46,051 nucleotides of DNA from Gammaproteobacteria bacterium (GTDB taxonomy: Bacteria; Pseudomonadota; Gammaproteobacteria; S012-40): the NCBI GenBank assembly GCA_029884425.1, contig JAOUHV010000018.1, forward strand, positions 1 to 46,051, written 5' to 3'. Below are positions 20,808 to 44,782 of the stretch, in pieces (the first letter of the stretch is position 1; every line of letters begins with the position of its first letter). Made by a program: the position numbers and the translations under genes. The notes under the pieces are model-generated. The model was not told the DNA's origin, searched no databases, and saw nothing but the letters and a program-made list of their open reading frames with translations.

Positions 20808-21464
20808 ATGCTGCTCAAAAAATTCCCATTGATTGCCCGCGAAGGTTGGCCGGTTTTATTTGTTGTGGTGTTGTTGGCCGCAGGGTTGATCTATGCCGAG
20901 CAGTACGTGTGGGCGATCGCATTGTCGTTGCTGTTGTTGCTGTTGCTGTTTTTGCTTCGCGATCCGGCACGCAATGTGCCAGCGCTGCCGTTGGCGGTGG
21001 TCAGTCCAGTGGATGGCGTGGTGCGTCGGGTGGCCTCGACGGTCGATCCATTTTTGTCGACTTCGACCACGCTGATAGAGTTGCAGATGAATCCGCTGAC
21101 TGATGTGTATTCGCTGCGCAGCCCCATTGAAGGCCGACTACAGCAACAATGGCATGGCGCAAGCGCGTCTACGGATGTAAAGTACGCACAATGCGTGCAA
21201 ACGGATGAGAAAGATCGAATTGTGTGGGGTGTGGCGGCAGGTTCCTGGATGCGGCCACGCTGTTATGCCTATCCCGGCGATCGTTTAGGTCAAGGGCAAC
21301 GTTGTGGCTATTTGCCGCTGGGTGGGAGAGTGTTGGTGTGGATTCCCGCCGACAGTCGCGTCAAAATCAAACAAGGCGACAAGGTGCTTGCCGGGGAAAC
21401 AGAACTCGCCACCCTGGTGCATCAAAGCGCGGTGAGTAGTATTACTGAAGAAGGAAGTCTTTGA
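20808..21464 (+). CDS. Phosphatidylserine decarboxylase-like protein lacking the catalytic Ser (probable pseudoenzyme)
   Basis: A 218-residue protein with the layout of short (type II/archaeal-type) phosphatidylserine decarboxylases: two N-terminal membrane segments (VLFVVVLLAAGLIYA and AIALSLLLLLLLFLL), then RDPARNVP, SPVDGVV at residues 66-72, and a C-terminal GQRCGYLPLGGRVLVWIP ending in GETELATL. In active homologues the last segment reads FGSRVDVYLP, and the Ser becomes the pyruvoyl group after self-cleavage. Here that position is Gly173. The family's DVHxNR stretch reads DVYSLRSP, so the His is also lost (Tyr101). The protein should not be self-processed or decarboxylate PS. It sits directly before pssA with overlapping ends, so a role in phospholipid synthesis, perhaps scaffolding PssA, is inferred. 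Confidence 0.75.
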   Translation: MLLKKFPLIAREGWPVLFVVVLLAAGLIYAEQYVWAIALSLLLLLLLFLLRDPARNVPALPLAVVSPVDGVVRRVASTVDPFLSTSTTLIELQMNPLTDVYSLRSPIEGRLQQQWHGASASTDVKYAQCVQTDEKDRIVWGVAAGSWMRPRCYAYPGDRLGQGQRCGYLPLGGRVLVWIPADSRVKIKQGDKVLAGETELATLVHQSAVSSITEEGSL

Positions 21465-21469
21465 GTCAT

Positions 21470-22249
21470 ATGTCCGAACCCATCGTTAAAAAGCCCCGTC
21501 GCGGCATTTATTTGCTACCGAATTTATTCACGACCGCGTGTCTGTTTTCCGGTTTTTACGCCGTCATTTCGGCGACCAATGGTATGTACGAAAATGCCGC
21601 TCTGGCAATTTTCGTCGCCATGGTGATGGACGGTCTGGATGGTCGCGTGGCTCGCATGACCAACACCAGCACCGAGTTTGGCGTGCAATACGACAGCCTG
21701 GCCGACATGGTGTCGTTTGGTGTGGCGCCCGGTTTGGTGATGTGGTTGTGGGCATTGCAGACCATGGGCAAGCTGGGCTGGCTGGTGGCCTTCATCTACA
21801 CGGCGGGTGCCGCGTTGCGTCTGGCGCGCTTCAATACCCAGGTCAAGGTTCAGGACAAGCGCTTTTTCCAGGGCTTGCCCAGTCCGGCGGCGGCTGCCCT
21901 GGTGGCTGGCGCGGTGGGATTGGGAACCCAATATGATGTGTTGGGCACCGACTACCGTGCGCCGCTGGCGTTTTTGACTGCGGCGGCGGGCCTGTTGATG
22001 GTGAGCAATTTCCGTTTCTACAGCTTCAAAGAGCTGGATATTAAAGGCAAGGTGCCGTTTGTGGTGCTGCTGGCGGCGATTCTGGTGTTTGTGTTTATCT
22101 CGATCGAGCCAGCTACCGTGCTGTTCTCTATCTTCCTGATTTACGCGGCCTCTGGTCCAATTGTGACCATCGCGGGCTTGCGCAAGCGCCGTGCGGAACG
22201 CCGCTCCACGCATGAAACTGATGGCCCGGGCCTTGGCAAGGGCGACTAA
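21470..22249 (+). CDS. pssA: CDP-diacylglycerol-serine O-phosphatidyltransferase
   Basis: A 259-residue membrane enzyme that makes phosphatidylserine from CDP-diacylglycerol and serine. The CDP-alcohol phosphotransferase motif D-G-x-x-A-R-x8-G-x3-D-x3-D is complete (MDGLDGRVAR ... EFGVQYDSLAD, about residues 57-82), inside a set of seven to eight membrane helices. Start ATG 21470 is preferred over an in-frame TTG at 21461 that overlaps the previous stop; GAAGGAAG lies upstream. The usual companion psd product is the odd PSD-like protein just upstream, so an active decarboxylase must be encoded elsewhere if the cell makes phosphatidylethanolamine. Confidence 0.92.
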   Translation: MSEPIVKKPRRGIYLLPNLFTTACLFSGFYAVISATNGMYENAALAIFVAMVMDGLDGRVARMTNTSTEFGVQYDSLADMVSFGVAPGLVMWLWALQTMGKLGWLVAFIYTAGAALRLARFNTQVKVQDKRFFQGLPSPAAAALVAGAVGLGTQYDVLGTDYRAPLAFLTAAAGLLMVSNFRFYSFKELDIKGKVPFVVLLAAILVFVFISIEPATVLFSIFLIYAASGPIVTIAGLRKRRAERRSTHETDGPGLGKGD

Positions 22250-25277: not shown

Positions 25278-25304
25278 GCCATATTGGCAGTAGAGGAATT
25301 CCGC

Positions 25305-26744
25305 ATGGCAATCAGACTACGCACCAGCATGCTCGTGTTGTTATTGTGGCACGGCAGCCCGACATGGGCGGACCAGCCGCCTGCGGCACCCAACACCGTG
25401 TCTGCCGTTATCCCCATCACCATGGCCAATTTACGCGGCCAGAAAGCCCTCTACAAAGAAGGCTGGTTCATTGTCAGCTCCACCGAAAACACCTTGCGCT
25501 ACGCCCGCGAAAAATCGCTGCGTTCCAGCGGACAGGCGCTGCAACAAATGCGCGCTCATCTGGCGCGCCACAGTGGTGAACTGGGCACCAATCTGGTCGA
25601 CGACGTGACAGCGGCAGGCCGCAGCGGACGAACGATTTTATCCACCGGCACCGAATTCAGTGGCGATATTTTGCAGGGCACGCATCAACTGGCGAAATGG
25701 CAGCTGGAGGCGGCGCAAAGCGGTTTCGTCAGTGCCTGGGACAGTTTTGTGCTGGGCAATCTGTCGTTGGTAGCGCGCACCGAAGATGACCGACAGGCGC
25801 TGCGCGCCATCCCCGGCGATTTTTTCACTAACGTCAAAGCCGACTTCAGCAATGTCTACGAACTGACTGACCGGACGGTCGCTGCCGTAACGCCGACGGT
25901 GGAGGTCAAATGGTCCGACGCCATGAGCGAAGCAGCCAAGGCATTTGATGACGAATATCAGGCATCGGGCGAGGCGGGCAACAGTCTGGCTGGTCTGGGC
26001 AACATCGTCAGTGGTTACGCCAAGGCGCTGTACTTCGGCGTGGCCAAGCCCGGCAGCAAGGCGGTGGTGAAAGGCGCGACTGCAACGGCCAGTCTGGGGG
26101 GCAAATTGATTTTCCTGCCAACCGCCGGGGTGCTGATCGTCAGTGGTCGCACGGTGCAGTCGGCGGGAATGACGCTGTATTACACCACCAGTGCGGGCGT
26201 CAAACTGGTGTCGCCCACGGTTGAAGGCGGCCTGTTGGCCGGGGTGTCGCTGTTGGCGGCGACCACGGTGCCGGTGACCTACGCTGCCGGGGCCAGCGCC
26301 GGACTGGTAAATCAGGTGGCGGTAACGACGATGGCCCCCGTGGCCGCAACCGCCCAGGCGGCGGGAACCGTGGCGCTGGACACGGCGGCGTATGCCGGGC
26401 AGGTCAGTTATGACCTGATCAAAGGCGGCGGCACGGTGGTGTTCAACCAGGCATCCAGCGGCGTGGCGCTGGGCTACAACGCGCTGACCGCCTTGCCGGT
26501 GCAGGCGCTGCTGGGAACCGCCAACGCGACGTTCTTTCTGGTGTACGACGGCCCGCGATTGCTGGTGGCCAAGGTCAGTGGCGAACTTGATGGCGCGCAT
26601 CCCTTGTCCGAACTGCCGGTGGGCAGCGTGGTGGACATGACACGTCTGCAGCAACAGCCTGGGGTGACACTGGAAGTCATCAGCGATGATCCTGCAGTGG
26701 TTGAACAGGTACTGCAACGGCTGCCGGAGGATTTGCGCCCATGA
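25305..26744 (+). CDS. Secreted Ala/Gly/Val-rich protein of unknown family, first of a paralogous pair
   Basis: A 479-residue protein from ATG 25305 with AGAGGA seven bases upstream (an in-frame TTG at 25284 is rejected). The N-terminus is a signal peptide (IRLRTSMLVLLLWHGSPTWA). Residues about 35-230 are mixed, with helix-forming stretches (SSGQALQQMRAHLARHS; LAKWQLEAAQSGFVSAWDSF). Residues about 240-400 are a long run of small, hydrophobic residues (LIFLPTAGVLIVSGRTV, LLAGVSLLAATTVPVTYAAG), resembling glycine-zipper-type membrane segments. The last 70 residues form a compact domain (ATFFLVYDGPRLLVAKVSG; LPVGSVVDMTRLQQQ) shared with the next gene. I do not recognise the family. The stop overlaps the next ATG (ATGA), so the pair is translationally coupled. 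Location is periplasm or outer envelope. Confidence 0.75.
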   Translation: MAIRLRTSMLVLLLWHGSPTWADQPPAAPNTVSAVIPITMANLRGQKALYKEGWFIVSSTENTLRYAREKSLRSSGQALQQMRAHLARHSGELGTNLVDDVTAAGRSGRTILSTGTEFSGDILQGTHQLAKWQLEAAQSGFVSAWDSFVLGNLSLVARTEDDRQALRAIPGDFFTNVKADFSNVYELTDRTVAAVTPTVEVKWSDAMSEAAKAFDDEYQASGEAGNSLAGLGNIVSGYAKALYFGVAKPGSKAVVKGATATASLGGKLIFLPTAGVLIVSGRTVQSAGMTLYYTTSAGVKLVSPTVEGGLLAGVSLLAATTVPVTYAAGASAGLVNQVAVTTMAPVAATAQAAGTVALDTAAYAGQVSYDLIKGGGTVVFNQASSGVALGYNALTALPVQALLGTANATFFLVYDGPRLLVAKVSGELDGAHPLSELPVGSVVDMTRLQQQPGVTLEVISDDPAVVEQVLQRLPEDLRP

Positions 26745-28582
26745 AGCGTTCGATACTGAGTGTTGCTCTGGGAGTTGTACTGCTCGGCTGCGCCACGCAA
26801 CCGACGGCGGATGACCCGTTGAAAAATACCAAACGACTGGTCAGCGAAGGCCATGCGGATTTGTACCGCAATGGTGCGTTTCATGTGCCCAATACTCAGG
26901 TGGCACTGATACCTCCCGGTCCTTCGGCGGTGGAGTTGGGCACGGAGCTGATGGGCTGGCGTGCGCGCCAGTCGTTTGTGACGGCGGTGATCAACGCCAA
27001 GGACTCGGTGTATCTGGTGGCCGATGGCACCAAAAAAAGTTATCAGCTGGCTAAGGGAATACACGAAGGTACCGACGAGGTGGCGCAGTACATCACCGAT
27101 CACAGTCGTGCCGGCAGTCGACTGCTGATCTACAAAGCCTATCCAAAAACCAAGCACATCATCGGCAGCTCCTGGGAACTGGCGGGCGACAGCGCGCGGG
27201 TGTTGAGTGAATTCGGCGATAACCTGGCGGATACCAGTCTGACGGCCGCGGCGGAAATCAGTCGTGACAGCGCCAGCGTCGGGCGACGACTGGTCGGCGG
27301 TTCCTGGCGCATGGCGGGCGACGTTCATCGCATCACCCTGCACGGCGCAAAAAGCTCGGCGGGTTATGCCTGGGACGAATTCGTTGAAGGCTATGCGGCC
27401 TTGCCGCAACGTCTGGGGGACCGGGCGGGTGCAGTGGCCGAGTCGGTGACCCTGAGCGGCTATGCGCGCGCCCTGGATAAATCGTTGGAATACCGGGCGA
27501 AGCGTTCGCAGTTTTACACCGACATCGTGGTCGACGGTACCGGTCACTACGTGGAAGGCGTCCAGCAATCGTTCCGTCATGCCGGCGAAGCGTTTGACGA
27601 GGTCGACGAAACCGGCATCAGTCTGGCGACGCTCAAGGCCACCCGCTGGGTGCTGCAGGGATTGTTCTGGGATGGCATGATCAAGCCGGTCGGTGCCACT
27701 GCCGTGGGTGCGGTGGGCTACGTGACGGTAAATGCCGTGACCTTCCCCACCATGCTGGTGGTGCGCAGCACTGTGCCCACCGCCGAAATCGCCGTGCAAG
27801 TGACCTGGAACACCGCCGGCGCGTTTTACGACGTGGTGGCCCCCACGGCAATTGCTGCTACAGCGTCGATTTTCAGCGTGACCCAATTGGCGGTGGGTGA
27901 AACTGCCGCTGCAGCGTCGGCGGTTGGCGGTACCGCGGTGGGTGGCAGCGTTGCGGCCCTGGGCCAGGGCGGGGCGGCGGTGGTGGCGGTGAGTGGTTTT
28001 GGCGCGGGCAAAACCGTGAAATACGTCGGCGTGCCGATGGCTGCGGCGGGGATTGCTGTGACCGGCACCGCCACTGGCGTGGTGGTGGGCACCGGCGCAG
28101 CAGCCACCGGCGCGACGGTGGCTGTGGCGGGCGAAACCACCGCCGTTGGCACCCAGGTGATGGGCAACGTACTGGCTGCCAGCACCTTGGTGGTGGGCAC
28201 GACGGCTACGGTGGTGGGCAGCACCGGTGTGGGCGTGTATGAACTGAGCAAGGCGGTGATGGTTCCAACCAGCTATGCCCTGGGCGGTGGAATTGTGCTG
28301 GGCTATGGCAGCACCTCGCAGCTCGCGGCGCATTCCATTTTGGCGGTCGCCGATGCATCGTATCTGGTGCTATCGCTGGAAGGCCCGCGCTGGGTGATTT
28401 ACGCCGTCAAAGGCAAAACCGGCGATGGCCGTGAACTCGCCCCCGGCACGGTGTTGAATCTGGAAAAGATGCAGCAACAAGGCGAAGAATTTTATTACCT
28501 GCCCGTGTCCGAACAAGAAACCCGCGCCGTGCTGGATTCCCTGCCGGCGGACTTGCCGACGGTGAGGGCGGGGGAGGAATAA
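26741..28582 (+). CDS. Ala/Gly/Val-rich lipoprotein of unknown family, second of a paralogous pair
   Basis: A 613-residue lipoprotein: lipobox VVLLGC with the acylated Cys17, and Ala at +2, pointing to the outer membrane. Residues about 40-320 resemble the corresponding part of the upstream protein (AWDEFVEGYAALP against AWDSFVLGNLSLV). Residues about 325-520 are extremely rich in Ala, Val, Gly and Thr (VGGTAVGGSVAALGQGGAAV; GTATGVVVGTGAAATGATVA), with regular small-residue spacing. The C-terminal domain ends like its partner (DASYLVLSLEGPRWVIYAVKG; LAPGTVLNLEKMQQQ; LDSLPADLPT). No enzyme motif is visible. One inferred possibility is an envelope channel or scaffold with the upstream protein. 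Confidence 0.78.
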   Translation: MKRSILSVALGVVLLGCATQPTADDPLKNTKRLVSEGHADLYRNGAFHVPNTQVALIPPGPSAVELGTELMGWRARQSFVTAVINAKDSVYLVADGTKKSYQLAKGIHEGTDEVAQYITDHSRAGSRLLIYKAYPKTKHIIGSSWELAGDSARVLSEFGDNLADTSLTAAAEISRDSASVGRRLVGGSWRMAGDVHRITLHGAKSSAGYAWDEFVEGYAALPQRLGDRAGAVAESVTLSGYARALDKSLEYRAKRSQFYTDIVVDGTGHYVEGVQQSFRHAGEAFDEVDETGISLATLKATRWVLQGLFWDGMIKPVGATAVGAVGYVTVNAVTFPTMLVVRSTVPTAEIAVQVTWNTAGAFYDVVAPTAIAATASIFSVTQLAVGETAAAASAVGGTAVGGSVAALGQGGAAVVAVSGFGAGKTVKYVGVPMAAAGIAVTGTATGVVVGTGAAATGATVAVAGETTAVGTQVMGNVLAASTLVVGTTATVVGSTGVGVYELSKAVMVPTSYALGGGIVLGYGSTSQLAAHSILAVADASYLVLSLEGPRWVIYAVKGKTGDGRELAPGTVLNLEKMQQQGEEFYYLPVSEQETRAVLDSLPADLPTVRAGEE

Positions 28583-33146: not shown

Positions 33147-33178
33147 AAAAAGGCTGCCCGCTGCGGGCAGCCTTTTTT
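33147..33178. terminator. Bidirectional-type terminator after prfC
   Basis: A GGCTGCCCG/CGGGCAGCC stem with a CTG loop is flanked by AAAAA on the left and TTTTTT on the right, so it can act on both strands. It is followed after 36 bases by the GMC oxidoreductase start. Confidence 0.92.
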
Positions 33179-33214: not shown

Positions 33215-35479
33215 ATGGAAAATACGTTGGGCTTGACGTTTAAAGAAACAATGTCGGGGCATTTTGCGCTAGGTGCCACTGATCCACGCGCAGGTGCGGC
33301 TGCAGGCAGCAGTGCAGACCAGACGCTGGCGATGCATGCCGAAGTTATTATCGGCAACTTGGATGAGTTCATCGCCAATCCGATGCATTTGGGCAAGCTG
33401 CAAGGCTCGATTGATTTTGCTCCTTTGGGCGAAAATCTGGCGTCGCACTCCGGCGTGTTTAATTTGTTCAAGCCTACCGACGATGTCGACACCACTCGCA
33501 TGATTTATGAGTTGGGCTTTAGCGCCAATGGCCAAGACTATTATCTGGCCGGCTACAAAGAAGTGCGCGATGACGTGGGCTTTGATTTGTGGAGCGACAC
33601 CACTACGCTGTTCACCACCTTGCACAAAGGCAAAGACAAAACCGGTGAAGTGGTTGGCGCGGGCGTGCTGACCCTGGGCGTGACCGATCTGGCCAAACTG
33701 TTGTCGACCATGCGCGTGCTGAACGCCGAGAATACCGCACAGAAAACCCAGGCGCTGAGTCGCTTTGGTCAGTTCTTTATGGGCGAGCTGTGGGACAGCT
33801 ATGCCGTTTCCAAATTCAGCGGTGCCCGCGAAGATGGCAACAACAATGAGGCTGAAGAGTTTGACGCAGTTGTTATCGGCAGCGGCTTCGGTGGCGCGGT
33901 TATGGCGGCACGTCTGGCCGAAAAAGGTATGTCCGTGTGCGTGCTGGAACGTGGCCGCGAGTGGACGCCAGAAACTTACCCGCGTAATCCTGGCGACGCC
34001 TGGTGGTGGGATGAAGACAAACCTGCCAAGAAAAACGGCTGGATTGATCTGCGCTTCTTCGACGACATGGCGACTGCTGCGGGCTGTGGTGTAGGTGGCG
34101 GTTCGCTGATTTACGCTAACATTTTTGTCGAAGCCGAGCCGTTCTCGTTTGAAGAAGGTTGGCCGAAGGAAATCAGCTACGATGGTTTGACTCCCTACTA
34201 TCAGCGCACCGGCGAAATGCTCAACGTACAGCCGATTCCTGACAACCAGATGACCGCGCGTGGCAAACTGATGAAGGAAGCGGCAGATAAAATCGGTGAA
34301 GGTCATCGTTACCGCAAGTTGCCTCTGGCGGTGACGTTCAACAAGGACTGGAACTACGATCTGCCCGATCCGTTCAACGAGTCGCACAGCGTGACCCACA
34401 CCAACGCGCAAGGCATGCAGCAGGGAACCTGCGTGCACTGCGGTAACTGTGACATCGGCTGTACGGTGCAGGCAAAGAACACTCTGGACCTGAATTATCT
34501 GCCGGTTGCCAAACGTAACGGCGCGCAGATTCGTCCGCTGCACTGGGTGCGTCGCATTACGCCAGAAGATAATGGTTATGAGATCGATTTTGATCGCATC
34601 GATGTGAAAAATGAAAAGCTGATCTCTGGCCATGTGCGGGCGAAAAAAGTATTCGTTGCCGCCGGCTCGGTGGGTTCAACCGAACTGCTGCTGCGTTGCC
34701 GCGATGAATACGGCAGCCTGCCCAATATCAGCGATCGCCTGGGTTATGGCTGGAGCTCCAACGGAGACTTCCTGACGCCTGCGTTCTATGAAGGTCGCGA
34801 CATGGCACCCACCCGTGGACCAACGATTTCTTCGGCGATTGATTTCCTGGACGGCAGTTTCAAAAACGAGCGCTTCTTCGTTGAAGATGGCGGTTTCCCC
34901 GATGTGTTGGGCAATGCCATTCAGGATATGGGTGATGACATTGTGCGTTACGGCACTTTGGCGGCAGCGCTGGGACAAATGGTGCGTGATCGCAATCCGC
35001 TGTCGTGCGTGATGCCGTGGTTTGGTCAGGGCGTGGACGCGCCAGATGGCCGCTTTAGCCTGAAGCGCAGCTGGTTGCCGCCGTTCAAAAAGAAACTGGA
35101 TCTGGATTGGGACGTGACGCGTTCAGAAGGCGCGGTGCAAGCCCTGATTGATATGCACAAGAAACTGTCTGCGGCGACAGGCGGTGAACCCATGGTACCT
35201 GCCACCTGGACTGTGCTGAAAAATCTGGTGACTCCGCATCCATTGGGCGGTTGCTGCATGGGCAACAATGCTGGCGATGGAGTGGTGGATCACAAGGGTG
35301 AAGTGTTTGGTTACCCTGGATTGTACGTGGTCGACGGCGCGATTTTCCCCAAGCCAGTAGGTTTGAATCCGTCACGGACGATTGCCGCACTGGCGGAACG
35401 CATTGCGGATTTTGTTGAGGTGCCACGCGGGGGAAAGCAGTCCGCAGCACAGCCTCGCGTTGAAGAGGTTGGTGCTTGA
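33215..35479 (+). CDS. GMC (cholesterol-oxidase-like) oxidoreductase with an extra N-terminal domain
   Basis: A 754-residue protein from ATG 33215 (a GTG lies directly before it; GAGAGG seven bases upstream). Residues about 1-200 are an extra domain also found at the C-terminus of the patatin-like protein of this operon (GFDLWSDTTTLF; RFGQFFMGELWDSY). From about residue 218 an FAD-binding GMC oxidoreductase follows: DAVVIGSGFGGAVMAARLAE with GxGxxG, a Cys-rich insert (CVHCGNCDIGCTVQAKNTLD) seen in bacterial cholesterol-oxidase-like enzymes, and the C-terminal HPLGGCCMGNN and GLNPSRTIAALAERIA. The substrate is probably a sterol, long-chain alcohol or related lipid. The stop is separated by two bases from the next ATG. 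Confidence 0.85.
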   Translation: MENTLGLTFKETMSGHFALGATDPRAGAAAGSSADQTLAMHAEVIIGNLDEFIANPMHLGKLQGSIDFAPLGENLASHSGVFNLFKPTDDVDTTRMIYELGFSANGQDYYLAGYKEVRDDVGFDLWSDTTTLFTTLHKGKDKTGEVVGAGVLTLGVTDLAKLLSTMRVLNAENTAQKTQALSRFGQFFMGELWDSYAVSKFSGAREDGNNNEAEEFDAVVIGSGFGGAVMAARLAEKGMSVCVLERGREWTPETYPRNPGDAWWWDEDKPAKKNGWIDLRFFDDMATAAGCGVGGGSLIYANIFVEAEPFSFEEGWPKEISYDGLTPYYQRTGEMLNVQPIPDNQMTARGKLMKEAADKIGEGHRYRKLPLAVTFNKDWNYDLPDPFNESHSVTHTNAQGMQQGTCVHCGNCDIGCTVQAKNTLDLNYLPVAKRNGAQIRPLHWVRRITPEDNGYEIDFDRIDVKNEKLISGHVRAKKVFVAAGSVGSTELLLRCRDEYGSLPNISDRLGYGWSSNGDFLTPAFYEGRDMAPTRGPTISSAIDFLDGSFKNERFFVEDGGFPDVLGNAIQDMGDDIVRYGTLAAALGQMVRDRNPLSCVMPWFGQGVDAPDGRFSLKRSWLPPFKKKLDLDWDVTRSEGAVQALIDMHKKLSAATGGEPMVPATWTVLKNLVTPHPLGGCCMGNNAGDGVVDHKGEVFGYPGLYVVDGAIFPKPVGLNPSRTIAALAERIADFVEVPRGGKQSAAQPRVEEVGA

Positions 35480-35481
35480 GC

Positions 35482-36510
35482 ATGAACCTCATCGAAAGAG
35501 TTGTGCCGTTCACCGCCGGTGACGGCATGGCTCTGAACTTGATTCATGTGCGTTCGGCAGATCGCGCCGCGACCAAAGGTCCGGTGTTGCTGGTGCATGG
35601 TGCGGGGGTGCGCGCGAATATTTTTCGCGCACCCACCCAGCAAAACATTGTTGAAGCGCTGGTGGCTGAAGGCTACGACGTGTGGCTGGAAAACTGGCGC
35701 GCCAGCATTGATGTGCCGCGCAATCCGTGGACGCTGGATCAGGCGGCGCTGTTCGATCATCCGCAAGCAGTGCGCAAGGTGTTGCAGGAAACCGGGGCAA
35801 GCAGTCTCAAGGCGCTGATTCACTGTCAGGGCTCAACCAGTTTCATGATGTCGCTGGTGGCCGGTTTGTTACCGCAGGTGTCGGTGGTGGTCAGCAATGC
35901 GGTGTCACTGCATCCGGTGATTCCTGCGGTTTCCAAGTGGAAAATCACCTTGGCGACGCCGCTAGTTGGTTTGTTCACCAAGTATCTGAATCCGTATTGG
36001 GGCATTGAGCCGGAAGGTTTGTTTTCGCGCCTGTTGGTGTCGACCATCAAACTGACACACCACGAGTGCGACAACATTGTCTGTCGTGGTTCCAGCTTTG
36101 CCTACGGTGTTGGTTTTCCGGTGATGTGGTCGCATGAAAATCTGGGTGAGCGGGTACACGAGTGGCTGAAGGATGAGTTCAAAAATGTCCCCATCCGCTT
36201 TTTTCGGCAGATGACCTGTTGTGTGCACAAAGGCCATCTGGTGGCCGCCGAATCCTTGCCGGGTTTGCCGCAGGACTTTGTGGCACTGCCGCCAAAAACC
36301 GATGCAGCTATTCACTTTTTCGCCGGCGAAGACAACATTTGTTTTTTGCCGCAGAGTCAAATTAACACCTACAACTATTTTTTAACGCACTCATCGAACA
36401 AGCATTCGCTGACCCTGATTCCAGGCTACGGCCATCTGGATGTGTTTATGGGCATGAATGCTTCTCGGGATGTGTTTCCAAAAATGTTGCAGGCGTTGGC
36501 ATCCAATTAA
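35482..36510 (+). CDS. Alpha/beta-fold hydrolase with Cys in the nucleophile position
   Basis: A 342-residue protein from ATG 35482 (a TTG two codons earlier overlaps the GMC stop). Signs of the alpha/beta hydrolase fold are the oxyanion strand PVLLVHGAGVRANIF, the nucleophile elbow LIHCQGSTSF with Cys115 where most members have Ser (GxSxG), the acid region around FFAGEDNICF, and the final His in GYGHLDVFMG. Cys nucleophiles are known in dienelactone hydrolase. This type of hydrolase is encoded next to, or fused with, cholesterol-oxidase-like GMC enzymes in several bacteria (family knowledge from memory). A lipid ester or thioester substrate is inferred. Confidence 0.8.
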   Translation: MNLIERVVPFTAGDGMALNLIHVRSADRAATKGPVLLVHGAGVRANIFRAPTQQNIVEALVAEGYDVWLENWRASIDVPRNPWTLDQAALFDHPQAVRKVLQETGASSLKALIHCQGSTSFMMSLVAGLLPQVSVVVSNAVSLHPVIPAVSKWKITLATPLVGLFTKYLNPYWGIEPEGLFSRLLVSTIKLTHHECDNIVCRGSSFAYGVGFPVMWSHENLGERVHEWLKDEFKNVPIRFFRQMTCCVHKGHLVAAESLPGLPQDFVALPPKTDAAIHFFAGEDNICFLPQSQINTYNYFLTHSSNKHSLTLIPGYGHLDVFMGMNASRDVFPKMLQALASN

Positions 36511-36527
36511 CGCAAAGGAGAAAGGCG

Positions 36528-37463
36528 ATGGGAATTCCCAAGCGCATAAGAAATCTGACGGGAAATTATTCGTTGGTCGACGGCATTCCATTTCAATTGC
36601 CAGTGGCGTGCGCGCCTTCGCCAGTGATCATGGCGGGATTCAGCATTGACGCCAATCGCGCCAAACAATTGCTGCCCAATGAAATTCATCCGCTGCGGTT
36701 GTGGAATGGCCGTGGCGTGTTGCTGGTGACGGTGATTAATTATTTGCAAACCAACATCGGCAAATACATCGAATACAGTATCGCCATTGCCTGTACGCAC
36801 GGCGCGAAGCCGGCGATGCCGATGCTGCCCGCACTGTTGATGAAGCCGTTTGGTACAGGTCAATACGTGCTGGATTTGCCGGTGTCCACTGACGTGTCGG
36901 TTAAGGGCGGCAAGGGAATCTGGGGCATGCCCAAACACCGTGCGCCGCTGGATTTTCATGTGGGCGAAAATATTTTGTCCAGCCAGTACGATCTGGATGA
37001 CAAGCTGGTGACTTATCTGGAAGTCGAGCGTCCCACCGGCAGGGCGTTGCCACTGAATGTTGGCGCGGCTAACTATTGTTCGTTTCGTGGCATGTTGATG
37101 AAGTCGTACATCTACTTCAAAGGTAATGTTCACTTCTGCATGGGTAAAAACGCCAAGGCGAGATTTGTGGTCGGTGAACACGAGCGTTCCGGTCCGCTGC
37201 GCTATCTGGATATTGATGACAAGCCATTGATGACTGCGTTTATTCCCAACGCAGTGGGCACGCTGGATGATCACATGGAATGCTGGTTCTTGCATGATGA
37301 AGAGGAAATCATTTATCAGCCGGAAGGATTTGAAAGCGTCATCAATCTGGGACGCGATGAAATTTGGCCGCCAGCGCCTACCGCACCGATTCGCAGTTGG
37401 GATCAGGCTTCTGAAACCAGTGACAAGGAGCGTTCATGGCCGCAGACCGAAACCGAAGTTTAA
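36528..37463 (+). CDS. Acetoacetate decarboxylase-like (ADC family) protein
   Basis: A 311-residue protein with the ADC fold pattern: the N-terminal LPNEIHPLRLWNGRGVLLV, the EYSIAIAC strand with a conserved Glu, the G-x-W-G-M-P-K-H segment (GKGIWGMPKHRAPLDF) carrying the Lys that forms a Schiff base in true acetoacetate decarboxylase, and a C-terminal barrel part. Many ADC-family members act on other substrates or as synthases. It follows the hydrolase with GAGAAAGGCG before ATG 36528 and overlaps the patatin-like gene by 28 bases, so all four genes are probably one operon. A role in trimming a keto-lipid product is plausible but inferred. Confidence 0.8.
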   Translation: MGIPKRIRNLTGNYSLVDGIPFQLPVACAPSPVIMAGFSIDANRAKQLLPNEIHPLRLWNGRGVLLVTVINYLQTNIGKYIEYSIAIACTHGAKPAMPMLPALLMKPFGTGQYVLDLPVSTDVSVKGGKGIWGMPKHRAPLDFHVGENILSSQYDLDDKLVTYLEVERPTGRALPLNVGAANYCSFRGMLMKSYIYFKGNVHFCMGKNAKARFVVGEHERSGPLRYLDIDDKPLMTAFIPNAVGTLDDHMECWFLHDEEEIIYQPEGFESVINLGRDEIWPPAPTAPIRSWDQASETSDKERSWPQTETEV

Positions 37464-38938
37464 CCAGCGCCAGCAGCGCTGACGGCATCAAGCGGTCGTT
37501 GGTGTTGCCCGGTGGCGGGATGCGCTTGTCGTATCAGGCGGGCGCGATGCTGGCGATGCAAGAGGCCGGCATTAGCTTTCAGCACATGGATGCTACTTCT
37601 GGCGGCAGTTTGAATTTGTCGATGCTGTTGTCCGGTTTGTCGCCGCTGCAAATGTGTCAGCGTTGGCGCAGCCTGAACATGGCCGATTCGATTGCGTTTT
37701 TGCCTCTGGAAAATTATCTGGACATTGCCGAGCTGGAAGCCTCTGGTTCGGGCGATGGTTTTGTCGAATCGGTGTATCCGCACCTGGGCATTGATTGCCA
37801 GCGCATTCGCCAGTTCGACGACATTCCCTGTACCTACAACGTGCTGGATTTTGGCGAAAAACAGGTGCGTGTGCTCAGTAATCATGAAATGGATGAGCAG
37901 TTGTTGCTGGCGGGCATGTCCTTGCCGGGGGTGTTTCCGCCGCTGCGCCGTGACGGCGACATTTTGCTGGATACCGGTTTTCTGCAAGACGCCAACGTTG
38001 CGGCGGCGGTGCGTCAGGGCGCAGAAGAAATCTGGTTGATCTGGGGTTTGGGCAACAGTCCCGAATATCGCGGCGGCGCGTTGCGGCTCTACGTGCAAAT
38101 GCTGGAAATGGCGGCCAACGGCGCACTCAATCGTGACATGCAATGGATTGATGAAATCAATCAGGGCATCGCGCACGGCTACAGTCCGTATGGTCAGCAG
38201 CGCGCGATTCGGGTTCATGTGATCAAGCCGTTTTATCCATTGCCGCTGGACCCGGATTTGTATCTGGGCAAGGTGGATCATGCAACGCTGGTGGAAATGG
38301 GTTATGCCGATGCCAAGCAGTATTTGCAGCGACGTGATGAATTTGGTGCGGATTTGCGCAGCAATGTGACAGCGATGAAGGTGCTCCGCCCTGGCGTGCG
38401 TTTTCAGGAACAGCTTGCGGGCAATCTGAGTCTGGACGGCGATGCGGCGGCGGTTGAATTGAACCTGACGGTGCATGTCGAAGATCTGGATCAGTTTTGC
38501 GCTGATGCCATTCCGCAGGCGCGGGTCACTGGTCGGTTAACGTCTGCGGCGCTGGGTGGCGAGATGCTGGTGGCACATGGCGTGTTTCAGTTGTTGCGCG
38601 ACTCGGACGCAGGCGCGCAACGGCGGTTGGTGTATGAACTGCAACTGGAAGACGGTGAGCATCGTTTGCAGTTGTTTGCCCAGCGGATTTTGCACGATGA
38701 CGCTGGGTTTGATATGTGGAGCGATATTTCGCGCTTGCAAATGGAATTGTTCAGCCTCGATGGTCAATCGAGGCAATCGCTGGCCAAAGGTGAATTGCAG
38801 CAGGGGCTGAAAACCTTTGGCAAAGTGCTGACCTCCGTGCGTGCCACGGGTGGCGGTGGTGTGGTGGACGATGCCTTGCAGGTGGCGCGCTTTGGTCGCT
38901 TCCTGATGGGAGAGATTTACGACAGTTACCACAGTTAA
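37436..38938 (+). CDS. Patatin-like phospholipase with the cluster-specific C-terminal domain
   Basis: A 500-residue protein starting at ATG 37436 (AAGGAG upstream) inside the end of the ADC gene. Residues about 20-300 are a patatin domain: oxyanion loop LVLPGGGMRLSYQAG, nucleophile Ser55 in ATSGGSLN, and the catalytic Asp in DTGFLQDAN (about 179). Residues about 310-500 are the domain shared with the N-terminus of the GMC protein (GFDMWSDISRLQ; RFGRFLMGEIYDSY). The patatin part should hydrolyse acyl chains from phospholipids or sterol esters. There is no signal peptide, so it acts on the cytoplasmic side. Confidence 0.85.
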   Translation: MAADRNRSLTSASSADGIKRSLVLPGGGMRLSYQAGAMLAMQEAGISFQHMDATSGGSLNLSMLLSGLSPLQMCQRWRSLNMADSIAFLPLENYLDIAELEASGSGDGFVESVYPHLGIDCQRIRQFDDIPCTYNVLDFGEKQVRVLSNHEMDEQLLLAGMSLPGVFPPLRRDGDILLDTGFLQDANVAAAVRQGAEEIWLIWGLGNSPEYRGGALRLYVQMLEMAANGALNRDMQWIDEINQGIAHGYSPYGQQRAIRVHVIKPFYPLPLDPDLYLGKVDHATLVEMGYADAKQYLQRRDEFGADLRSNVTAMKVLRPGVRFQEQLAGNLSLDGDAAAVELNLTVHVEDLDQFCADAIPQARVTGRLTSAALGGEMLVAHGVFQLLRDSDAGAQRRLVYELQLEDGEHRLQLFAQRILHDDAGFDMWSDISRLQMELFSLDGQSRQSLAKGELQQGLKTFGKVLTSVRATGGGGVVDDALQVARFGRFLMGEIYDSYHS

Positions 38939-38962
38939 TCGTCGGTTCCGTGTTGCGCTGTG

Positions 38963-39002
38963 AGCGTGTTAACCTGACTCAAAGGGGTTAACACGCTTTT
39001 TT
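38963..39002 (+). terminator. Hairpin-T-tract directly before tatD
   Basis: AGCGTGTTAACC pairs with GGTTAACACGCT over 12 bases, with a loop of ten, followed by TTTTTT that runs into the tatD ATG. It fits a terminator for the lipid operon, yet leaves tatD with no visible ribosome site. Confidence 0.85.
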
Positions 39003-39761: not shown

Positions 39762-40105
39762 TTTGCGTGTTCTTTTTCGCCGGCCTCTGGCCTCGTTTTG
39801 CTGCATTTTTTCTCCAAAATCAACGCCGTTAAAATTCCCTGCAAAATTTTATGAAAACTAAAAATATCTTTATCTCATTGTATTTAAGGGATTTTGATAT
39901 CAACGCGGTCTGCCTGTCGCCGATAGGGTCGCTATGAACGAATCGGCGCGAAGTCATGCCGATGTTCAGCGTAGAGGTTCAGGCGGTAATCACGCGCGAA
40001 AAACAGCGATGACAGAAGGCAAGTAAGGGACTATTGCACGCGTAATTGCCAAGGGTTGTTTGCCTTGAACCTCATTTGCACTTGAGGATATCCAAGGAGA
40101 AATCT
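39762..40105 (+). other. 344-base intergenic region before the giant lipoprotein gene
   Basis: No gene seen. It starts with an AT-rich stretch (39830-39895) likely to hold a promoter, contains a perfect 10-base palindrome TTGATATCAA (39894-39903), and a CGCCGAT/ATCGGCG inverted repeat at about 39919-39949. A small CCTCA/TGAGG hairpin precedes the ribosome site. No known riboswitch was recognised. Confidence 0.5.
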
Positions 40106-43100
40106 ATGTCATTTATAGGCCAACGTTGGCTGGCCGCTAGCATTGTGAGTTCACTGCTGGCGCTAGCCGGTTGTTCGGGCGGGGGAGATACCGCCACAGA
40201 AGACAGCAGTACCGCAGTCATCAGCGGACGGGTGAGTTTATCAAATGTAGTGGGAGATGATACCGCTGCGACCAAACCGCTGATGGCCAAGGCGATGGCC
40301 AAGGCCGCCGCCAGTGGCAAGCTGCTGAAGTCCACCGACAAAATACAGGCGGTGGAAATGTACGCCACCACCTCTACCCCATACAGCAAAGTCCTGCAGG
40401 AAGCGGGCTTGTTACCGCAGGAAGCGGCGGTGTTGGGTGGGGCGACCATCGAATTGTATGACGCCAACCAGCCCGAGTTGCTCGATCCCATCGCGCGGAC
40501 ATTGGCCGATGCCAACGGCGACTATATTTTTGACAAAACCCTGGATGGTTCCCCCATCCCTGCGGGTAACTACACGCTGATCGCCAGCAAATATGATCTG
40601 AACACCGGAACGCTCTATGTTGCGGTCCAGACCATCGTTGAGTCGTTTGCCGGGAATGTCGGTGGCAACGATCTGGTTGCGCAAGACAGCGACGCAGTGG
40701 CCAGCGTGATTTCTGTATTGGGTCAGGGGCAATCTGCAGCCGGCGGTTATGCTGACTCGACAATGCCGCAGGACGCGGGCTTGCCCGTGACCTTTAGCAT
40801 GGCAATGGCACGGGGCACGATTCCCAATATCAAGGTGACCAATGCCACAGGTACGGTTGTGGCCGGAACCTGGAAAATTTCGCCTGACTTGCTGTCAGCG
40901 ATGTTTTTCCCAACGGCAGATTTGACGCTGAATGAGTTGTACACCATCACTATTCCAGGTGGAAAAATCCTCAACACGGTCAACAACGTTTACGGCAAGG
41001 CAATCCCTGCAACTATAACTGCCAAGTTTACTGCGGTGGCGTCGGATACCACTTCACCCACTGCATCGGCGCTGGAGCCAGTAGGTCCAAATATTCCGGT
41101 AATTAACCCCATCCGGTTCGGTGTGAACGAACCTATTGATACTACGACGATTAATGTTGCGGTCACCAGGGGGCCAAGCCTGGGGGCCAAGCCTGCCATT
41201 CAATTCATTGGTAAGGACAGCGCAGCACCGATTTACAAGTTCGTCTATCAGATCATGCCGTCTGAAGGTTTGAAGCTGAATACTGACTACACCATTAAGG
41301 TGACTGACGGTATGGATTTGGCCGGCAATCCGATGGATCCGCTGAGCTTCTCGTTCAAGACCGAAGCGACCTCGGCCGGTATTTCTGCCTCTGACTCGGT
41401 TACCGTGGCGTCAGAAAAAGTGGCGGTCAAGGACGTATTTGGTAAGTGGCTGATGGCCATGCAAAAACGCGATACTTCACTGTTCAGCAGTTACATGAGC
41501 GGCGACTTCTTCTGGATTTCTCAGCCAGGCGACAAGGCGGACGTGAACCGTGACGGTCGTTTGTCGGTGAATGAGTTTACCGGCATGCTGTCCAAGGAAC
41601 TGTTCCCGATGATCGAAATGTGTAGCGTTACCCTGGGCGGTGATGTGACCAGCGACATCGTGATCAATCCTGAGTTGACCAAGGCGATCATGTCATTCAA
41701 TTTGACATTTACCCCCGGCAACACGCTGAACAGCCAGTGTGGTCAGATGGCCAGCGATGGTCCTGGCATATTGTCCATCGAGTTGCGCAAGCGTAACGGC
41801 ATGTGGTTGATGACCAAAGGTGTTGATGGTGCTGACACTACCAAACTGAGCGGATTGAAGCCATACAAGCTGTTGGAGCTGGATACCCCTGCGGATGCGG
41901 CGGTATTGCCAGACCCTGGTGCGCAAAAACTGACACCTTCTCTGAAATGGGTTGCCGGCACTTACGATCATGATAATGACAAAGGTGTTGCAACGCCGGA
42001 AATCAAAATTCCAACCTATGCGGTTGTGTTGCTGGATGAAAGAAATCAGCGCACAGGTTGGGTGGCGCTGTATGACGCCTCTACTGCTGCGGCGGGCGAT
42101 GTGCTAGGGGCGAAATTCAACCCCATGGCAGGTACCTATGGCAATACGATGGTTCTGCCAAATGGTCAGACCTTCGGTATGGAGCGCAGCATCAGTGAAC
42201 TGGTGGCTGGCGGTAAATACCGTTGGGCGGTGCTGGGTCTGAGTTCAACTCTTGCGCAGTTGACACAAGATACCTCAACGTACACCAATAACGTCGTGGG
42301 CTCATCCATGGCGCGTAAGTTCTCCGTTGGTGGTAATTTTGCGGAGTTGGCGTTGAGTGTGTCTTCCGTGGCAGGTGTTCATACCTACAATCCATCGTTC
42401 GATGGCTATGACGTTGGTGGGGCGGACACGGTGGATATTACCGTGACGACGCCAAATCCCAATGTGATGCAGGCTCGCCTCGAACTGTTTGGTTATAAGC
42501 CGCAGATGTTGTTTGCAATGTTCACCAATGGTGTGGCGACATTTACGGGTGTGCCGCTATCCAAGGGCATGAATCATGTGACGGTTTGTGAGGATGTCTA
42601 CGATCCAAACAACATGAACGGTGGTATGGGATGCTACAGCTCCCTGGGCTTGACCAAGGAGTTTAATGCTCAAACCTCCGGTGGTTTGCTGCCACAAATC
42701 AATTTCGGCACTGTGTATGAAATTGATGCGACTGGTGCGGAAAGTGCTGTCACCTTGAATTCATGGAGTGACTTTGATAGCACAACCGCAACTTCGGTCC
42801 GTGTTACTGGTACAGTTGCTGCGGGTATCACTGGTTTGAACTGGCAGGTACACGGTGAGAATGGTGAGCGCGCCCAAGGTAGTGCAGCATTATCCGGTGG
42901 CGGCTTTGACGTGATAATTCCGGTGTATCCAGGCTGGAATGGTATCGAGTTCATGGATGACATGTGGATGAACTTCAACCGCATTGGTGTTCGTACCTCA
43001 GCGGGTTCCGTCTACGTGCCTGACACCAAGATCAATAGTATCTCTGATGCAGGTATGGCAGCGATTGCGGTGCAAACCGAGGACTTCTACCAGTTGCGTG

Positions 43101-44782
43101 CGGATGCCGGAAACACTGACAGCGTGACACTCACCGGTACGTTCAACAACTGGGACAGCATGAACGGCTCAGCCAATTGGAATCACTGCATGGGTGAGAA
43201 CTGTATGTCCTTTATCACCGGCGGTCCGCTGACGGTTACGCCTGATGTCAATGATGCCACGAAAGGCAATTTCACTCTGACAGTGACTGGTTTGGTCGAT
43301 GGCTGGAACCAAATCGACGTTAACTGGTGCTGTGGTATGAATGGCGGTGCCTGGTACCGTGTACTGGTGTTCACCACCAACGGTAACGTGTTTGTGTTGC
43401 CACACTCACTGGTATCCTACGACGTGGGCGCAGGTGTAGTACCGTTCACCGGTTCTAGTAACTGGCGGTCAATTGACGTTGGTGCGGCTTGTTCGATCAA
43501 GGTCAATGGTTCAACCAACATGCAAGGTATGGTGTGGTCTGATGTGAACTACTATGATCCTGTTAAGGCTCTGGGTAGCTATCAGCGGGTGGAAACCCAA
43601 ACCTCGCCAGTGCCAGATGGCAATGGAAACTACCCCTACAATCTGACTGCAAACATTTATGGTGGCGTGAACGATTTGGGTATCTACGATCCAAACGGCA
43701 TGTGGCAGGGGCTTAATGTTACTACTACCTGTGCCAACAAGCCGGTGATTATGGAAGTAACCGGCATTACTGACGGTGCAGGCACTGCGTTGGCCAACAA
43801 CTACGGTATGGTTGACGCGGGTATGGCAACGACGGTGCGTTTGACCGGTACAGCCAAGGCGGGTGCAACCCTGACGGCCAACATCTCTGGTCAGTACATG
43901 GAGACAGTGACAGCAGTTGCAGGTGCAGGAAATACCTTCACCATGGATCTGCCGATCTACAATGGTTACAACTACATCAACCTGACCGATGGCAGTAACT
44001 GGTTCTACTTGACGGTTGTTTCCAACGGCACACGTGTATATGTAGCACCGTTCTCCAGCATCTTTGTGGATGGAGGTGTCGGTGGTGCGTATTTCATGGG
44101 CGGTTGGGGCACTGGCGAAAGCTGGAACAACAGCCTGAATTCGACAGTAAACCTGTCGGGTTTGGTGGCGGCAGGATCGGGTAATGTTACCTGGTATCAG
44201 CGTAGCAATACTACGACGCAGTCTGGCACGGTTACGCCGGATGTTAACGGCATCTTCCAGATTCCAGTAACGCTGTTCCAAGGCTACAACGGCTTTGACC
44301 TGTACGATGGTAGTGGCCGTTACTACTACGTGGAGATCAGCTCAGCGGTTGGTATCGTACCACCTAAATTGGTGAGTGTGGTTTCACACGCGGATGGTGC
44401 GATGGCCTCTGGCCCGACCACTATCACCGTTGAGGTGGATCCAGGCTACGCCTATGCCAATGTTAACGTCTACGTGCGTAACTGGGGCAGTGCGGACCCA
44501 TACGGTACTGAACAGCGTTTCACTACTGATCCCAACTTGGCAATGCCGGGCAGTGGCTGGACGTTGTTGAACGCTTCGGGTCTGCAGTTCTCTGCAACGG
44601 CGGATCTGACGGGTACCGACGTGGAAATTTACGTTGAAGCCCTAAGCGCTGATTACATGCAGTGGCACGGCCAGGTTGTGTACGTCAACAGCACCTGGAC
44701 GGGTTACAGCTGGAAGCCAACCAAGGGACTGAAAGGCCCCGTGGCATCAAGACAGCATGTGATCCATCAATACCACAAATAA
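40106..44782 (+). CDS. Giant lipoprotein with Ig-like repeats and an EF-hand loop
   Basis: A 1558-residue protein from ATG 40106 with AAGGAGA upstream (an in-frame TTG at 40046 is rejected). The lipobox LLALAGC gives an acylated Cys23, with Ser at +2. Order: a low-complexity Ala/Lys segment; a carboxypeptidase-regulatory-like part (ATIELYDANQ ... ADANGDYIF); a bacterial Ig-like domain (about 235-430, DLAGNPMDPLSFSF); an NTF2/SnoaL-like part (VAVKDVFGKWLMAMQKRDTS) interrupted by a canonical EF-hand loop DVNRDGRLSVNE near 478-489; then at least five or six repeats rich in Gly, Asn, Tyr and Trp, each with a GxNxxxxxD-like turn (YPGWNGIEFMDD; YNGYNYINLTDG; FQGYNGFDLYDG). It is a surface or periplasmic protein, possibly adhesive or carbohydrate-binding. 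Confidence 0.8.
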   Translation: MSFIGQRWLAASIVSSLLALAGCSGGGDTATEDSSTAVISGRVSLSNVVGDDTAATKPLMAKAMAKAAASGKLLKSTDKIQAVEMYATTSTPYSKVLQEAGLLPQEAAVLGGATIELYDANQPELLDPIARTLADANGDYIFDKTLDGSPIPAGNYTLIASKYDLNTGTLYVAVQTIVESFAGNVGGNDLVAQDSDAVASVISVLGQGQSAAGGYADSTMPQDAGLPVTFSMAMARGTIPNIKVTNATGTVVAGTWKISPDLLSAMFFPTADLTLNELYTITIPGGKILNTVNNVYGKAIPATITAKFTAVASDTTSPTASALEPVGPNIPVINPIRFGVNEPIDTTTINVAVTRGPSLGAKPAIQFIGKDSAAPIYKFVYQIMPSEGLKLNTDYTIKVTDGMDLAGNPMDPLSFSFKTEATSAGISASDSVTVASEKVAVKDVFGKWLMAMQKRDTSLFSSYMSGDFFWISQPGDKADVNRDGRLSVNEFTGMLSKELFPMIEMCSVTLGGDVTSDIVINPELTKAIMSFNLTFTPGNTLNSQCGQMASDGPGILSIELRKRNGMWLMTKGVDGADTTKLSGLKPYKLLELDTPADAAVLPDPGAQKLTPSLKWVAGTYDHDNDKGVATPEIKIPTYAVVLLDERNQRTGWVALYDASTAAAGDVLGAKFNPMAGTYGNTMVLPNGQTFGMERSISELVAGGKYRWAVLGLSSTLAQLTQDTSTYTNNVVGSSMARKFSVGGNFAELALSVSSVAGVHTYNPSFDGYDVGGADTVDITVTTPNPNVMQARLELFGYKPQMLFAMFTNGVATFTGVPLSKGMNHVTVCEDVYDPNNMNGGMGCYSSLGLTKEFNAQTSGGLLPQINFGTVYEIDATGAESAVTLNSWSDFDSTTATSVRVTGTVAAGITGLNWQVHGENGERAQGSAALSGGGFDVIIPVYPGWNGIEFMDDMWMNFNRIGVRTSAGSVYVPDTKINSISDAGMAAIAVQTEDFYQLRADAGNTDSVTLTGTFNNWDSMNGSANWNHCMGENCMSFITGGPLTVTPDVNDATKGNFTLTVTGLVDGWNQIDVNWCCGMNGGAWYRVLVFTTNGNVFVLPHSLVSYDVGAGVVPFTGSSNWRSIDVGAACSIKVNGSTNMQGMVWSDVNYYDPVKALGSYQRVETQTSPVPDGNGNYPYNLTANIYGGVNDLGIYDPNGMWQGLNVTTTCANKPVIMEVTGITDGAGTALANNYGMVDAGMATTVRLTGTAKAGATLTANISGQYMETVTAVAGAGNTFTMDLPIYNGYNYINLTDGSNWFYLTVVSNGTRVYVAPFSSIFVDGGVGGAYFMGGWGTGESWNNSLNSTVNLSGLVAAGSGNVTWYQRSNTTTQSGTVTPDVNGIFQIPVTLFQGYNGFDLYDGSGRYYYVEISSAVGIVPPKLVSVVSHADGAMASGPTTITVEVDPGYAYANVNVYVRNWGSADPYGTEQRFTTDPNLAMPGSGWTLLNASGLQFSATADLTGTDVEIYVEALSADYMQWHGQVVYVNSTWTGYSWKPTKGLKGPVASRQHVIHQYHK

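Follow-up and report, generated by a model that had tools for sequence, protein, structure and literature searches.

A predicted barrel domain shared by two proteins of a gammaproteobacterial enzyme cluster and recurrently fused to lipid-type enzymes in other bacteria

Why should a flavoenzyme and a patatin-like lipase, standing at the two ends of one small gene cluster, carry the same additional domain? The question is raised by four genes at positions 33215 to 38938 of contig JAOUHV010000018.1 (assembly GCA_029884425.1, Gammaproteobacteria bacterium), of which a stretch of 46,051 nucleotides, referred to as the window, was analysed. The domain, here called DOM, comprises about 190 residues. 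In a judgement that we hold to be evenly balanced, DOM is a new family that provides a multi-enzyme lipid pathway, itself undescribed, with its shared unit for ligand carriage or catalysis, and it has been re-fused repeatedly across at least six phyla; the enzymes meant are an iron–sulfur (Fe-S) GMC dehydrogenase, a Cys acid-lipase homologue, an ADC-like Schiff-base enzyme, a patatin, and a metallophosphoesterase. The four genes (handles DOM-GMC, HYD, ADC, and PAT-DOM') and the two copies of the domain are as follows.

33215..35479, plus strand: DOM-GMC, 754 aa, N-terminal DOM fused to a GMC oxidoreductase dependent on flavin adenine dinucleotide (FAD); open reading frame (ORF), Pfam GMC_oxred_N/C, conserved residues
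33215..33829, plus strand: DOM copy 1 (canonical type), GMC residues 1–205; alignment and AlphaFold2 model
35482..36510, plus strand: HYD, 342 aa, alpha/beta-hydrolase related to gastric/lysosomal acid lipase, with Cys115 replacing the nucleophile Ser
36528..37463, plus strand: ADC-like protein (PF06314), 311 aa, in which the pair Lys136-His137, within GMPKH, is invariant
37436..38938, plus strand: PAT-DOM', 500 aa, patatin-like lipase (Ser55, Asp179) with C-terminal DOM'
38360..38935, plus strand: DOM' copy 2 (divergent type), patatin from residue ~309; alignment, grouping on a long branch with the PAT-borne copy of locus L066

A sequence-only reading of this DNA had described the genes as tightly packed, with spacings of 2, 17, and -28 bases, which the ORF coordinates reproduce, and had claimed that one domain is common to the GMC N-terminus and the patatin C-terminus. 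This claim is borne out by an alignment of GMC residues 6–196 with patatin residues 320–498, which spans 191 columns at 29% identity (BLASTP E 1e-26, phmmer 2.6e-24) and scores 220 locally, compared with a mean of 32 (standard deviation 5, maximum 60) over 2000 shuffles. Because this alignment lies far above the shuffled scores, the similarity is more than two short motifs, and the two copies also have the same predicted fold. In a profile search with the domain alone, a check which that reading had proposed, a DOM profile of 21 relatives, among whose rows are both window copies, recovers these copies at E 3e-85 and 6e-58, and the 2.9 Mb genome itself holds no DOM copies beyond the two in the window. 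Since 17 residues, including E11, Y98, D120, D124, W126, and D128, are identical in 16/16 aligned DOMs, DOM' included, both copies in the window look functional.

Modelled alone with AlphaFold2, copy 1 is predicted to form an eight-stranded meander barrel followed by a C-terminal helix (predicted local distance difference test, pLDDT, 88; predicted template-modelling score, pTM, 0.83). Copy 2, modelled within the whole patatin, is likewise predicted as an eight-stranded barrel with a C-terminal helix (pLDDT mostly 70–90), so that the order of elements agrees between the copies; these two predictions are not fully independent, because the copy 2 alignment included copy-1 rows. Structure searches with DOM returned generic barrels only, with weak matches including lipocalin-type PGDS, AbyU, and streptavidin; the best Foldseek E was 0.06 for a non-lipocalin and 0.08 for a lipocalin, and the best Z of 9.7 is also reached by unrelated barrels. 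The sequence-only reading knew of no described function for the domain, and this still stands: none was found in Pfam and NCBIfam, where no family lay above its cut-off (21 members scanned, isolated matches only, best E 0.06), among PDB sequences, where the DOM profile met no family covering DOM, or in the open-licence (Creative Commons) literature, which yielded no account of the domain, of the cluster, or of its recombination.

Where else does DOM occur, and in which company? Loci came from a genome-contig scan (14), from plasmid records (four) and, in far greater number, from whole-genome searches. DOM was found in 4/56 related genomes and in 9/398 genomes of the own phylum (own genome included in both), the latter being an even draw, as well as in 52/146 genomes of the Myxococcus phylum, with up to five copies, in 4/247 genomes of the phylum of a Pedobacter metagenome-assembled genome (MAG), and in 10/246 genomes of the phylum of locus L017. 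Together with occurrences in Leptospira and an Acidobacteriota MAG, these surveys place the domain in at least six phyla. In 58 of the 59 fetched loci, DOM either is joined in cis to GMC, HYD, ADC, or PAT or adjoins one of them; the partners so placed are GMC in 51 loci, HYD in 39, PAT in 20, ADC in 15, and a metallophosphoesterase of ~600 aa in 13. Architectures are varied, namely PAT-DOM (16), GMC-DOM (16), GMC-DOM-HYD (10), DOM alone (10, a count including L053, which proved to be DOM-DUF362), ADC-DOM (3), DOM-HYD (2), DOM-GMC (2), and HYD-PAT-DOM (1, a truncated gene); free-standing DOM genes adjoin GMC in nine loci. The typical order in Alteromonadaceae is HYD, ADC, PAT-DOM, GMC; that of the window is DOM-GMC, HYD, ADC, PAT-DOM'.

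Two of these loci deserve separate mention. The protein headed by DOM in L053 (7592–10366) is 924 aa long and contains a DUF362 domain; this is the sole DOM seen without a cluster partner. In a Paraglaciecola arctica contig (L004, 8144–9226), a single reading frame joins the first ~55 residues of HYD to the last part of the patatin domain with its DOM; the rest of HYD, the ADC gene, and the greater part of the patatin domain are missing, as either an assembly error or an internal deletion would explain.

A tree of 58 DOMs requires 18 changes of partner, compared with a minimum of seven. Window copy 1 groups with the PAT-borne DOMs of Alteromonadaceae (support 82/86; wider group 95/86), and the sister of window copy 2, on long branches, is the L066 copy carried by PAT (84/97). 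L066 is also the only locus besides the window, among the 59, in which two DOM-bearing genes per cluster are clear; the others hold one DOM each, on GMC, PAT, ADC, or HYD, or free-standing. The PAT C-termini of L009, L014, and L061 may be further, much diverged DOM' copies, which a first test did not show and to which hhalign assigns a probability of 73%.

The linkage of the four genes is conserved, and a check of co-occurrence, which the sequence-only reading had proposed, points in the same direction. In the 398-genome sample, the ADC subfamily (threshold E <1e-100) is present in four genomes, all of them among the nine with DOM (hypergeometric 1e-7; 5e-6 without the own genome), although the effective number is below four because two of the four genomes belong to the same genus. 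No relative of the metallophosphoesterase was found in a search of the own genome, run without a positive control. A small membrane protein has its own gene in L009, L014, and L061 and in myxobacteria is fused to the patatin N-terminus (E ~1e-28 to 1e-22). The clusters of L061 (13410–14747) and L009 (14324–15271) hold small membrane proteins (DUF4345, anthrone-oxygenase-like, and one unnamed), the unnamed one being the N-terminal fusion on the myxobacterial patatins of L042 and L045.

Is the flavoenzyme an oxidase, as it had been labelled? Its membership in the GMC superfamily is clear from GMC_oxred_N (37.9 bits, gathering 23), GMC_oxred_C (63.1 bits, gathering 24.6), and the catalytic pair His675 (53/53 aligned sequences) and Asn718 (49/53). 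It also contains one further segment.

34430..34462, plus strand: C406-x2-C409-x2-C412-x3-C416, putative Fe-S ligands, from aligned GMC relatives

C406, C412, and C416 are present in 56/56 aligned GMC sequences and C409 in 50/56. In the FAD glucose dehydrogenase of Burkholderia cepacia (BcGDH), Cys212, Cys218, and Cys222 serve as the [3Fe-4S] ligands, and the alpha subunit of this direct-electron-transfer (DET) type enzyme has the same C-x5-C-x3-C ligand spacing as the window protein (PMC6719666). Since the invariant cysteines have this spacing, an oxidase is less likely than a dehydrogenase whose electrons leave through an Fe-S cluster, and the label was probably wrong: judged by spacing, invariance, and approximate position of the cysteines, the window GMC is probably an electron-exporting Fe-S flavo-dehydrogenase. 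Membership in the ChoxAB cholesterol oxidases (NF058674) was rejected at 258 bits against a curated cut-off of 850. In L031 (11209–13140), GMC-DOM-HYD has as its neighbour a membrane protein whose terminal part is a RoxA-like cytochrome c and which is a possible electron acceptor for GMC.

The naming of the second protein as a Cys-hydrolase proved correct: C115 occupies the position of the gastric lipase Ser, where 39/40 aligned sequences have Cys, with His318 in 38/38 and Asn285 in 39/40. With Abhydrolase_1, the weak match among the Pfam assignments of the four proteins (GMC_oxred_N/C, Abhydrolase_1, ADC, Patatin), it scores 23.0 bits, below the gathering value of 25.8, and it lacks the Ser nucleophile. 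Assignment as a polyhydroxyalkanoate synthase (TIGR01836) was rejected despite the Cys nucleophile (21 bits, curated cut-off 365). The third protein matches PF06314 at 50.3 bits (gathering 29.8). In that family the Schiff-base Lys is usually followed by a second Lys (PKK); here, the invariant K136 is followed by H137 in 16/16 aligned sequences, and a search of the PDB with the ADC profile found no relative to align. The patatin exceeds the PF01734 gathering value of 27.7 with 63.1 bits and has its dyad conserved (S55 in 20/20, D179 in 21/21).

What could such an assembly do? The cluster, the two DOM copies of one predicted fold, the recurrent linkage and fusion, and the conserved catalytic residues are direct observations, and from them we infer the ligand of DOM, the pathway substrate, and the activities. 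Tentatively, and with slightly less than even confidence, we regard the four genes as a transcription unit of a cytoplasmic lipid-processing pathway in which DOM is the hydrophobic-ligand unit, substrate and chemistry being deduced. As a beta-barrel with a hydrophobic cavity, DOM would bind a sterol-like or other neutral-lipid intermediate and present it to the enzymes; the release or transfer of an acyl group would fall to PAT and the Cys-hydrolase; GMC would oxidise the freed secondary alcohol to a ketone, passing its electrons via the [3Fe-4S] cluster to a carrier and not to oxygen; and the ADC-like enzyme would act on the keto product via a Schiff base, in a decarboxylation or by aldol chemistry. 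The two DOM copies of the window would place one at each of two steps. The proximity of GMC to cholesterol oxidase, of HYD to gastric/lysosomal acid lipase, and of PAT to PlpD is consistent with a theme of esters of alcohols. Since DOM works on varied partners and also by itself, we see it most readily as a pathway unit in its own right, with opportunistic fusions.

Several observations weigh against this proposal. The fold matches of DOM are weak (top structural Z 9.7 for copy 1 and 10.4 for copy 2), none has a Foldseek E <1e-3, and they are common to unrelated barrels; ADC, PAT, and HYD are each absent from some DOM loci, and the Myxococcus loci L013, L015, and L016 have GMC-DOM alone nearby. 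Moreover, the conserved charged residues of DOM could indicate catalysis instead of binding. DOM would then be an enzyme, i.e., a small barrel isomerase, cyclase, or hydratase carrying out its own step on the GMC product, which we consider unlikely. It is nevertheless a serious rival, given that all 16 aligned copies, DOM' among them, share six residues of polar or aromatic character (E11, Y98, D120, D124, W126, and D128). One copy per cluster would suffice for such an enzyme and its position would be free; AbyU and PloI4 among the weak fold matches are barrel enzymes, and cholesterol oxidases couple oxidation to isomerisation. No structural match of DOM to any enzyme is significant, however.

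The sequence-only reading had itself suggested a shared docking or lipid-binding domain, holding oxidase and lipase together on one substrate. Lipid binding is still the best guess, and the partners are indeed of the lipid type; docking of the end proteins does not hold as the general role of DOM, because most of the 59 loci contain one DOM. That DOM is a docking or scaffold domain assembling the enzymes, for instance by pairing DOM on GMC with DOM' on patatin, appears unlikely to us. The window and L066 do combine DOM on GMC with a divergent DOM' on PAT, both DOM' copies group together, and the three PAT C-termini named above would add to the pairs, but free-standing DOM persists and there are GMC-DOM-HYD proteins, each a single polypeptide, that have no second copy nearby. 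That unrelated lipid genes came together by chance, along with a promiscuous domain devoid of pathway meaning, might be suspected, given how common the GMC, patatin, and alpha/beta-hydrolase families are; with adjacency and fusion recurring across at least six phyla, and with the ADC subfamily confined to DOM genomes in the sample, we regard this as very improbable.

Turning to the surroundings, the four genes are flanked by those of RF3 and TatD, and terminator-like hairpins stand before and after them, so that the cluster reads as one unit.

33147..33177, plus strand: terminator-like hairpin at the junction of the RF3 gene and the cluster, 14-pair stem and T run (-24.2 kcal/mol, z -4.7)
38962..39000, plus strand: terminator-like hairpin ending the cluster, 14-pair stem followed by a T run (z -2.6)

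No signal peptide was seen by eye in the four window proteins, nor do they show a clear membrane helix: a simple hydropathy scan of them flagged one weak segment, in HYD only. Elsewhere in the window, genes for a phosphatidylserine decarboxylase and a CDP-alcohol phosphatidyltransferase lie between ilvC and leuA (20808–22249), two neighbouring long ORFs of 486 and 613 aa lack a Pfam match (25284–28582; the second with a lipoprotein-like signal at its start), and a 1578-aa lipoprotein-like protein with Big_5 repeats directly follows the TatD gene (40046–44782).

Each component enzyme comes from a known superfamily, and databases already list GMC-DOM-HYD proteins with generic annotations ("GMC oxidoreductase" or "alpha/beta fold hydrolase"). 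That DOM is fused, in one species or another, to most enzymes of a single cluster argues strongly, by the "Rosetta stone" principle, for a pathway so far unrecognised, which DOM, as a single handle, would serve to locate in any genome. Many proteins at present annotated as "GMC oxidoreductase", "alpha/beta fold hydrolase", or "hypothetical", some of them from myxobacteria, would thereby acquire a function; a further yield is a GMC dehydrogenase for which an Fe-S relay is predicted and a lipid substrate is probable.

How, finally, does the cluster compare with known systems? The GMC scaffold matches that of BcGDH (PDB 6a2u, E 5e-15), whereas genes for a gamma (hitchhiker) or a multihaem c subunit do not adjoin it, its neighbours being RF3, HYD, ADC, PAT, and TatD, and its substrate is presumably a lipid. 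Its best GMC family is Streptomyces ChoA cholesterol oxidase (NF058674, E 1.5e-76; PDB E 7e-39), and the His/Asn catalytic pair is common to both; in contrast to that enzyme, the window protein carries DOM, and the alignment begins after the four-Cys segment. The HYD profile matches acid lipases/cholesteryl ester hydrolase of the gastric lipase family (1hlg, 1k8q, and 6v7n; E 9e-10 to 4e-8), from which HYD differs by Cys in place of the nucleophile Ser and by Asn285 near the expected site of the triad acid. Among PlpD-type patatins, PlpD is matched structurally by the window patatin domain (Z 24 over 248 residues), which, unlike PlpD, bears a C-terminal DOM' and has no signal peptide. PlpD has an outer-membrane barrel, and none of that kind is present in the window patatin. 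The closest counterparts are the GMC-DOM-HYD fusions of ~1150 aa from Leptospira, Azospirillum, and Bernardetia, which unite the same three units in one polypeptide, whereas the window separates them, with DOM at the GMC N-terminus and HYD apart, and adds ADC and PAT-DOM'.

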